A stretch of DNA of 38,982 nucleotides from Pyrinomonadaceae bacterium. Its GTDB lineage: Bacteria; Acidobacteriota; Blastocatellia; Pyrinomonadales; Pyrinomonadaceae. The position numbers were made by a program, and so were the translations under genes. The notes beneath the pieces are model-generated. The model had not been told where the DNA came from, did no database searches, and saw only the letters and a list, made by a program, of their open reading frames with translations. The stretch covers positions 1 through 38,982 of the forward strand of contig JABDKD010000051.1 in assembly GCA_013003215.1 (NCBI GenBank), in the 5' to 3' direction. Each line of letters starts with the position of its first letter. The stretch's first letter is position 1. Shown here in pieces: positions 17,648 to 20,472 of this stretch.

Positions 17648-18823
17648 TTACTCCTTTGTCATATCCGGAGTTGGGCGTGAGAGGAGCACGCTGGAAAGAG
17701 ACTCACGGACGACGCTTTCGGGGACCATTCCCTCGCTGACTACTCGCGGGATTCCTAAGCGTTCTAATAGGATCCATTGTAGCGATCCGCCTACCGCCTT
17801 TTTGTCTGACAACAAGGCGTCGCAAACCGCTTCGATGTCGATGGCGGCCGTATCCGGGAGCGAACCGACGCGCAAAACAACATCGTTTAACAAGTTTATA
17901 CTAGTTATGTCACAGAATTCAAGCTTTTTTGCAATTTGATTAGCCGTGAGAATACCGTATGCAACCGCTTCCCCATGGCGGAAATAGCGGTATTTCGTTA
18001 CTTTTTCAAGGGCGTGTCCTACGGTGTGCCCAAAATTGAGAACTTTTCTCGAAGCAGAATCGATACGTTCTGGGTCTTCATTAGCGTCATTTGCAACGAA
18101 TTTCGCTTTTCGATTAACTTGTTTTGAAACCAAATCCGTTAGATCTGCCAGATAACCGTCGTTTTCAAAATACTCCGGCAGATTCAGTCCCGGGTATTTC
18201 TTCAGAAAATCCGCAACGAGGGTTAAGGAATCCTGTCCACCGATGGCGCCGTGCTTAATTACCTCGTAATACCCTGCTCTCATTTCGCGCGGATCCAATG
18301 TCCTCAGAGTAGACACATCGGTAAGGACACCTGCGGGATTGTGAAAAGCGCCGATCAGGTTCTTCCCTGCCGGTGTATTGACCCCCGTCTTCCCACCGAC
18401 CGATGAATCAACCATTGCAAGCAGTGTGGTTGGCACCTGGACAAAATCCACACCTCGCATAAAGATCGACGCCGCAAAGCCCGCGATGTCCCCGACTACG
18501 CCGCCCCCCAATGAGATGACGAGATCACTTCTCGTAAGTCGGTGCCTCGCAAAATCGCTGGTGATACGATTCACGGTGTCCAGATGCTTTTGTTCCTCAC
18601 CCGCCGCTATTGTGATGGGAAAAGTTACGAATCCCTCCAACTCAAGCGATTCAATCAAGTCCTTACCGTACAGGCCTGCCACCGTCTCATCGGTCACTAA
18701 AGCAACCTTGTTGCCTTTGTAACCGACGACCTCATGAAGAAACTTACCAACTTCAGGAAGCACGGCGGTGCCAACCCGAACAGGATATGAACTGTCCCCG
18801 GATTTGATTTCAAAATCCTTCAT
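17648..18823 (-). CDS. aroB: 3-dehydroquinate synthase
   Basis: The protein has 391 residues from the ATG at 18821-18823. A longer in-frame version (to 18919) is rejected because its extra residues are translated terminator hairpin and leader RNA. Hallmarks are the NAD-binding loop SLGGGVVGDIAGF (104-116), PTTLLAMVDSSVGGKTGVN (131-149), the metal ligand Glu187 in AGYYEVIKHG and FGHTVGHALE, another metal-binding segment. It converts DAHP to 3-dehydroquinate, the second step of the shikimate pathway to chorismate. No other aro gene is adjacent. The start codon is five bases after the U-tract of an intrinsic terminator and no Shine-Dalgarno sequence is visible. Expression must therefore come through that terminator or be controlled by it (see the RNA at 18828-18984). 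Confidence 0.95.
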   Translation of the reverse strand: MKDFEIKSGDSSYPVRVGTAVLPEVGKFLHEVVGYKGNKVALVTDETVAGLYGKDLIESLELEGFVTFPITIAAGEEQKHLDTVNRITSDFARHRLTRSDLVISLGGGVVGDIAGFAASIFMRGVDFVQVPTTLLAMVDSSVGGKTGVNTPAGKNLIGAFHNPAGVLTDVSTLRTLDPREMRAGYYEVIKHGAIGGQDSLTLVADFLKKYPGLNLPEYFENDGYLADLTDLVSKQVNRKAKFVANDANEDPERIDSASRKVLNFGHTVGHALEKVTKYRYFRHGEAVAYGILTANQIAKKLEFCDITSINLLNDVVLRVGSLPDTAAIDIEAVCDALLSDKKAVGGSLQWILLERLGIPRVVSEGMVPESVVRESLSSVLLSRPTPDMTKE

Positions 18824-18827
18824 ATAG

Positions 18828-18866
18828 AAAAAACGAAAAGCCGCGAGCAAATAACTCACGGCTTTT
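18828..18866 (-). terminator. Intrinsic terminator directly before aroB
   Basis: On the reverse strand AAAAGCCGTGAG and CTCGCGGCTTTT pair as a 12-base-pair stem with one G-U pair and a 7-base loop, followed by CGTTTTTTC. The T-run (18828-18833) ends five bases before the aroB ATG. As the U-rich exit is on the minus strand, it ends RNA coming from the glmM side or from the promoter at 18988-19016. Confidence 0.88.
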
Positions 18867-18984
18867 TCTAAGAGATTAGGGGCAGGCGAAGCAACGTGGG
18901 AGTGTGCCGCGCCTGCCAATCTGTGGTAACTGTCCTCACCCCAGCTACCACTCGAAACACAGTGTTAACCATGCTTCGGTGCCC
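18828..18984 (-). ncRNA. Candidate structured small RNA or aroB leader
   Basis: A transcript from the promoter at 18988-19016 would start near 18984 and end at the terminator before aroB, about 157 nt. Its 5' end GGGCA-CC-GAAGCA pairs with TGCTTC-GCC-TGCCC (18880-18893) as a closing stem. Inside, GTGGTAGCTG pairs with CAGTTACCAC (one G-U) around the loop GGGTGAGGA, and GTGT/ACAC pairing extends the rod with an asymmetric bubble. A rod with a central bubble recalls 6S RNA, but I cannot confirm a family. No SRP, RNase P or tmRNA signature was found. A 35-codon frame (from an ATG inside the RNA) ends at a TAG just before the terminator, but it is not rich in Trp, Phe or Tyr, so a classical attenuator peptide is unlikely. 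Confidence 0.55.
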
Positions 18985-18987
18985 ATT

Positions 18988-19016
18988 ACTATATCCCCAC
19001 TTACCAGATTTGGCAA
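18988..19016 (-). promoter_or_regulatory. Predicted sigma-70 promoter of the aroB-upstream RNA
   Basis: On the reverse strand TTGCCA (19011-19016) and TATAGT (18988-18993) are separated by 17 bases. It sits just after the glmM stop codon (19062) and points towards aroB. The match is good at both boxes. Confidence 0.72.
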
Positions 19017-19061
19017 GTTTTTCGGGGGTTCTGAAACATCGGTGGAAATTGATCATTCCGG

Positions 19062-20402
19062 CTACCCAAGTGCTTTGCCTATCACACTTGCAAGGCGCCT
19101 GGCTTTTTCTTCGATATCGTCCTGATCGGCACCTTCGATCATAACGCGGGCTAAATTCTCCGTACCGGAATACCGAAGAAGTAGTCTTCCTGTTTCGCCG
19201 AGTGCTTCCTCAACCTCATTCTTACAATCCACGATCTTCGGGATTTCTTCAAATGGCGCTTTTCGCCCAACCTCAACGTTTACAAGAATTTGCGGGAACT
19301 GACGAAATCCTTCCTTTAATGCGGAAAAGGTCTCGCCGGATTCTCTCATCGCGGAAAGCACAAAAAGCGCTGTCTGCATTCCGTCTCCGACAAGAGAGCG
19401 GTTAGGGAAAATGATATGACCTGACTGCTCACCCCCAATCGAATGGCCACAGTTGAGGAGTTCCTCGAGTACATATTTGTCACCAACCGCTGTACGAACA
19501 AGCTTTATTGACTTTTTCTGAAGTGCCACCTCCAGGCCCAAATTGCTCATCACCGTCGCGACAACGGTATCATTCTTAAGCTTTCCTTTGTCATGGAGGT
19601 TGTTCGCCATGATCCAAAGAGTCGCATCGCCGTCCACGATCTGCCCTTTTTCATCAACAAAGAGTGACCTGTCCGCGTCCCCATCAAATGCAACCCCAAA
19701 ATCCGCCGATTCTCTTTTAACTGCGTCCTGCAGGACTTCAAGGTGCAGAGAACCGCACTCGCGATTTATGTTCCTGCCATCCGGCGAATTATGGATGGGA
19801 ACAACCTCGGCTCCCAAATCTTCAAATAACAGTGGTGCAAGCCGCGAAGCTGCACCGTTCGCGCAATCGGCGACGATCTTGATTCCCGAAAGATCCAGTC
19901 CTCCGAAATCCTCTTCAAAATGCGTAATGTAGTTTTCACGAAGCTCCGTCCCTCTATCGGAATGTACATCCGACATCGCAAAACCCTTGGTATTGCCCTC
20001 AAGAATAGCGGCTTCCAAAAACTCCTCAACTACCGTTCCAATCTTTTTTCCGGAAGGCCTGAAGATCTTTAAACCATTGTCGGTAAAAGGGTTGTGCGAG
20101 GCACTTATAACGATTCCCGCATCGAATCCCTTACATCCGGCAAGGTAAGCTACACCCGGTGTGGTGATGACTCCGGCCGATTCACAATTTCCCCCGCCCG
20201 CGTCGATTCCCGAAGAAAGGGCCCTTTCGATTCGAACACCGGATTCCCTCGTGTCACGACCGGCAATAAACTGGGGAACCCGGTTTAACTCGTTCTTGGC
20301 ATATTTGGCAAGGGATTTTCCGATTATCCACACCGTTTTCGAATCAAGGGGATATTTGTCCGCCTTTCCGCGAATTCCATCTGTTCCAAAAAGCTTATTC
20401 AT
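19062..20402 (-). CDS. glmM: Phosphoglucosamine mutase
   Basis: The protein has 446 residues from the ATG at 20400-20402. An in-frame start 24 bases upstream adds residues that the family does not have. The N-terminus KLFGTDGIRG is diagnostic. The phosphoserine loop is VISASHNPFTDNG with Ser102. The metal loop is FDGDADRSLFVD, the sugar-binding segment SIGGEQSGHIIF, and the phosphate-binding segment near the end is LLRYSGTENLARVMIEG. It interconverts glucosamine-6-phosphate and glucosamine-1-phosphate for UDP-GlcNAc and cell-wall synthesis. It is divergent from an exported lytic-transglycosylase-like protein, and the two predicted promoters share their -35 region. The next gene on the same strand is the aroB leader RNA, which has its own promoter. 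Confidence 0.95.
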   Translation of the reverse strand: MNKLFGTDGIRGKADKYPLDSKTVWIIGKSLAKYAKNELNRVPQFIAGRDTRESGVRIERALSSGIDAGGGNCESAGVITTPGVAYLAGCKGFDAGIVISASHNPFTDNGLKIFRPSGKKIGTVVEEFLEAAILEGNTKGFAMSDVHSDRGTELRENYITHFEEDFGGLDLSGIKIVADCANGAASRLAPLLFEDLGAEVVPIHNSPDGRNINRECGSLHLEVLQDAVKRESADFGVAFDGDADRSLFVDEKGQIVDGDATLWIMANNLHDKGKLKNDTVVATVMSNLGLEVALQKKSIKLVRTAVGDKYVLEELLNCGHSIGGEQSGHIIFPNRSLVGDGMQTALFVLSAMRESGETFSALKEGFRQFPQILVNVEVGRKAPFEEIPKIVDCKNEVEEALGETGRLLLRYSGTENLARVMIEGADQDDIEEKARRLASVIGKALG

Positions 20403-20472
20403 ATTGGTTTCAGTTAGTTGCCGCAAAAGTGAGGTGATAACCTTCGATTAAAAAATTGCGACAAAAAATACT

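Follow-up and report, generated by a model that had tools for sequence, protein, structure and literature searches.

The nearest described way of working for the RNA analysed here is that of sX13 of Xanthomonas, a 115-nt intergenic small RNA (sRNA) with three stable stem-loops and C-rich apical loops, which pairs with G-rich motifs near translation starts in an Hfq-independent manner (PMC3771888). Our RNA, which we call type A, likewise has three stem-loops, a C-rich apical loop and a fixed locus (polA for sX13, glmM for type A), and by this analogy we infer that it too acts through its loops. The two have no known sequence relation, and whereas sX13 carries C-rich motifs in all three loops, only loop 3 of type A is C-rich, its loop 2 being G-rich and near-invariant; type A also has siblings with complementary loops, which are absent from the account of sX13 in PMC3771888. 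Siblings with a common three-stem-loop structure, as in type A and the RNA that we call type B, are represented by NgncR_162/163 of Neisseria, but these are adjacent and 78% identical, whereas the Pyrinomonadaceae siblings lie at separate loci and have mainly a loop in common (PMC13104608). Acido-1 and Acido-Lenti-1 (RF01686 and RF01687; PMC2864571) are, like type A, structured and non-cis-regulatory RNA candidates of Acidobacteria, but neither matches the type A RNA; a sub-threshold Acido-Lenti-1 match lies near one paralogue, outside it (L173). 6S RNA (RF00013), also a stand-alone structured RNA of similar length, differs from type A in fold and sits at another locus. Our search of the open literature turned up no account of any family of regulatory sRNAs from Pyrinomonadaceae, none of the 4227 models of Rfam 15 matches the type A RNA, and its siblings have no convincing Rfam match.

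In the window (that is, the whole 38,982-nucleotide stretch of DNA that was analysed), the type A RNA gene (18828..18982, about 155 nt) fills the spacer between glmM (19062..20426; TIGR01455 above cut-off), its conserved upstream neighbour, and aroB (17648..18823; TIGR01357 above cut-off), which follows it here though not in every relative; both genes and every type A feature lie on the minus strand. The spacer holds a promoter, three hairpins and a terminator. A -35 element, TTGCCA (19011..19016), whose TTGC recurs at this place in homologues, is separated by 17 nt from a -10 element, TATAGT (18988..18993), and transcription is predicted to start 3′ of the latter, near 18982-18980. The promoter match alone does not rise above chance (4 promoter-like sites compared to 4.2 expected), but an upstream TATA[AGT]T -10 element is found in 57 of 68 distinct type A homologues, compared to 10% of shuffles. 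The RNA ends in an intrinsic terminator with a 13-bp stem (18836..18866) and a U-tract that runs to 18828, stopping about 5 nt short of the aroB start codon (ATG, 18823). Behind this U-tract, aroB starts without a recognisable Shine–Dalgarno sequence (18821-18835).

The strand that carries type A folds at -73.1 kcal/mol, compared to -46.0 kcal/mol for its shuffles (z = -6.4, a value that none of 200 shuffles reaches), and the best fold consists of three separate hairpins followed by the terminator. We aligned 65 homologous sequences, in which 17 of the 22 consensus pairs show changes on both sides and 97.5% of cells pair; by shuffling tests, which ignore the relatedness of the sequences, none of 500 shuffles reaches any of these measures, and control structures slid by 1-3 columns are only 25-50% paired. 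The covariation supports hairpins 2 and 3. Hairpin 2 (18923..18951) has a 10-bp stem with all cells paired across the 65 sequences and 6 of its 10 pairs changed on both sides, and its variable stem carries the near-invariant loop GGGUGAGGA (18933..18941). Hairpin 3 (18881..18917), in which 11 of 12 pairs are changed on both sides, bears the C-rich loop CUCCCACGU (18894..18902). Hairpin 1 (18953..18978) differs in sequence in every member of the genus while the hairpin is kept, and its loop is UGRAU in other genera; its position forms a hairpin in all 72 homologues considered, but so do 55% of shuffles, so that its shape alone is not evidence. A covariance model built from these data, which includes the window's own sequence, matches 18870-18981 with an E value of 1e-23.

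These results bear out most of what an initial annotation had read from this sequence: the promoter, with its -10 element conserved in homologues, the hairpin with a G-rich loop, the strong U-tract terminator, a length between glmM and aroB close to its estimate of about 157 nt (about 155 nt here) and, with the fold energy and the compensatory changes that it had proposed to look for in homologous spacers, a structured RNA bounded by promoter and terminator. Its closing stem, which would join the 5′ end to the stretch preceding the terminator, is absent from the best fold. Of seven genus members, six can pair these ends over 4-5 bp and one over 7 bp, and as the stem is neither confirmed nor conserved in the genus, the rod-with-bubble shape drawn from it gives way to three separate hairpins. 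A search for a conserved peptide in type A homologues, which included the frame that opens at the GTG of the loop, found none: this frame (VRTVTT...) looks threonine-rich, but in many homologues a stop follows after 6-8 codons, and the frame also shifts between genera.

The type A covariance model matches 76 of 119 Pyrinomonadaceae genomes (Acidobacteriota), with up to nine matches in one genome; genus g9 mostly lacks it. By BLASTN, homologues are detected in 35 of 60 relatives, all within the same family, and in a draw of 247 genomes across the phylum matches occur only in members of the family and in two other Blastocatellia genomes. A pattern scan of named genomes returned 92 stretches and, among those listed, almost all are from Acidobacteriota (Pyrinomonadaceae/Blastocatellia); a match in Rhodoferax (L096) looks fortuitous and does not extend to the remainder of the RNA. 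In distant homologues the loop GGUGAGGA and a CCCA loop in hairpin 3 are retained, and nearly everything else differs. Plasmid relatives were searched for and none was found. The RNA is conserved in each of the 29 genera that were sampled, lies outside Rfam 15 and has siblings with a near-invariant loop, and it is therefore testable in the cultured Pyrinomonas methylaliphatogenes K22, which is among the pattern-scan matches (L097); in G027, the genome that matches K22, the sibling type B described below was not detected.

Type A has paralogues and shares its near-invariant hairpin loop with sibling RNAs. The window's own genome contains 19 RGGTGAGGAC sites, only two of which lie in a long hairpin, those of type A and type B, and most other GGTGAGGAC sites in this genome are not in hairpins. 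Type B (L240; G000:C263:27019-27111, minus strand) consists of three hairpins, with loops UCCCC, GGGUGAGGA and GUGUGGGAGA, and a terminator, and occurs in 92 of the 119 family genomes. Across 12 type B sequences 98.3% of cells are paired and 10 of 24 pairs are changed on both sides, each such change resting on one sequence. Type C (L309; G000:C147:3656-3726, plus strand) lacks hairpin 2 and has a hairpin with a C-rich loop and a terminator whose loop is GUGUGGGAGA; tandem type C copies are seen in one other genome (L314, G087). Genus g10 has type III RNAs, in which hairpin 2, again with the near-invariant GGGUGAGGA loop, precedes a second hairpin of UGAAN (or GAAA) type. Type III loci (L176-L179, L182, L183, L171 and L191, with two copies in tandem in L183) have a GC-rich terminator, and perhaps also a closing stem, GGYG/CRCC, that would form a three-way junction.

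Loop 3 of type A and loop 3 of type B are complementary: CUCCCACGU and GUGUGGGAG can form nine contiguous pairs, seven of them Watson–Crick, a match that roughly 1% of shuffled loops equal, and the computed duplex is more stable (-13.9 kcal/mol) than that between loops 3 and 2 of type A itself (-9.1 kcal/mol). In the 73 genomes whose type A loop could be read, with pairing computed against the consensus type B loop, all 49 that have both types keep at least six contiguous pairs, whereas 18 of the 24 without type B fall below six, a threshold that was chosen after the data were seen. Five of the six exceptions (G062, G064, G072, G129 and G132) are genomes of 71-87% completeness whose genus has type B elsewhere. 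On a GlmM tree of 38 rows, however, the loss of type B and the change in loop 3 occur once each and on the same branch, so that the correlation amounts to one event and not to independent replication. In genus g9, most members of which have no type A, type B still retains its loop, and it must therefore have one or more other partners. A kissing interaction between type A and type B is a serious candidate, though we would not call it probable. As for a replacement of type B in the genomes that lack it, seven further GGGGTGAGGAC sites from five such genomes were considered: six lie outside any comparable hairpin, and the seventh (L335) belongs to another RNA, which has no matching loop.

As would be seen in a trans-acting sRNA, type A is intergenic, has its own promoter and terminator and keeps a conserved structure, and we regard it as very likely to be an independent sRNA. 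Judged from sequence, it probably acts through loop base pairing, and the account that we favour, with moderate confidence, is that it is an independently transcribed, trans-acting sRNA that belongs to a new superfamily in Pyrinomonadaceae/Blastocatellia and works by such pairing. Here, the exposed apical loops would be the active parts: the C-rich loop of hairpin 3 could pair with G-rich, Shine–Dalgarno-like sites in mRNAs, and also with the G-rich loop of siblings B and C, in which case the siblings would titrate type A, or type A the siblings. Loop GGGUGAGGA of hairpin 2 would then serve all members of the superfamily as a recognition site, whose partner could be a protein, an RNA or the 16S tail. 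Hfq is found in 39 of 40 relatives. A wider and tentative extension, which we consider rather unlikely, is a modular sRNA network of the Blastocatellia that combines a shared hairpin (loop RGGUGAGGA) with hairpins of C-rich or G-rich loops, in which siblings would kiss each other and compete with Shine–Dalgarno sites, and types B and C (G-loop) would restrain type A (C-loop). If the sibling loops truly pair, they would constitute a natural RNA–RNA control circuit made of interchangeable hairpins.

The near-invariance of the hairpin 2 loop over a variable stem, and its recurrence in RNAs of different architecture, would also suit an RNA that titrates a protein, with GGGUGAGGA (and the UGRAU of hairpin 1) bound by an RNA-binding protein for which the siblings act as decoys. 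CsrB and RsmY are decoy RNAs of this kind for CsrA. However, CsrA is rare (it was detected in only 5 of 40 relatives, the window's own genome among the five), and the loop lacks what we take to be the relevant motif, ANGGA. We thus set aside a CsrB/RsmY-type decoy of CsrA, and hold protein titration in general to be unlikely.

Less likely again is that type A is a cis-acting leader or attenuator of aroB, as proposed in the initial annotation, in which the promoter would drive aroB and the terminator would be read through according to a signal. The close spacing of terminator and aroB start speaks for it, as does our search for a separate aroB promoter between the RNA and aroB, which found none. 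The gene neighbourhood is divided on the question: most type A copies have glmM upstream, and where a glmM-linked copy has enough sequence to tell, the gene that follows is aroB in 30 cases, but an unrelated gene of 510 amino acids in 17 and another gene in eight. The paralogues sit at unrelated loci, adjoining rpoC, argH, a TPR gene and others (neighbours named from inspected translations, except for TPR, which is a Pfam assignment), and no antiterminator fold is seen in the covarying structure. As the RNA remains behind glmM whatever gene comes after it, and as its paralogues lie elsewhere, it keeps no constant position before one gene or pathway; type A is a conserved structured RNA independent of the gene downstream, and control of aroB does not hold up as its conserved function. 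In this species the RNA may still act locally on aroB, for which the 5-nt distance leaves room. In many genera the gene immediately following the RNA encodes this 510-amino-acid protein family (L072:3643-5169, minus strand); the gene also adjoins the RNA in genomes from two further Blastocatellia families (L162 and L163), and it has no Pfam family match. We rejected it as a partner of the RNA, with a match in only 24 of the 119 family genomes and in none of the window's genus.

A ribosome-directed role, in which loop RGGUGA would bind free 30S subunits through the anti-Shine–Dalgarno tail of the 16S rRNA and dampen translation, appears very improbable. The loop forms a 7-bp match (six Watson–Crick) with GGATCACCTCCTTT, which we take to be this tail, and the GAGGUGA of distant homologues matches it perfectly over 7 bp. 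Yet the complementary bases sit in the loop of a stable hairpin, and any G-rich loop will partly match the 16S tail.

Finally, the suggestion that type A is 6S RNA, or a 6S paralogue that binds RNA polymerase, which goes back to its similar length and to the first impression of a rod, can be practically discounted, as the RNA has three hairpins and neither a conserved closing stem nor the long closing stem with a large internal bubble that marks 6S RNA, and as the covariance search proposed in that annotation, with the Rfam 6S and general models, gave no match at the type A locus. For RF00013 in particular, there is no match in the window, nor at E values up to 10 in 18750-19080. Some bacteria have two 6S RNAs, so that the absence of another 6S RNA from a genome is not a strict criterion, but here a divergent 6S candidate, below the Rfam cut-off, does lie elsewhere in the genome (L001; G000:C138:47858-48060, minus strand; E = 3.7e-6), and 6S RNA is found in 24 of 25 relatives searched, in 12 of them above the cut-off.
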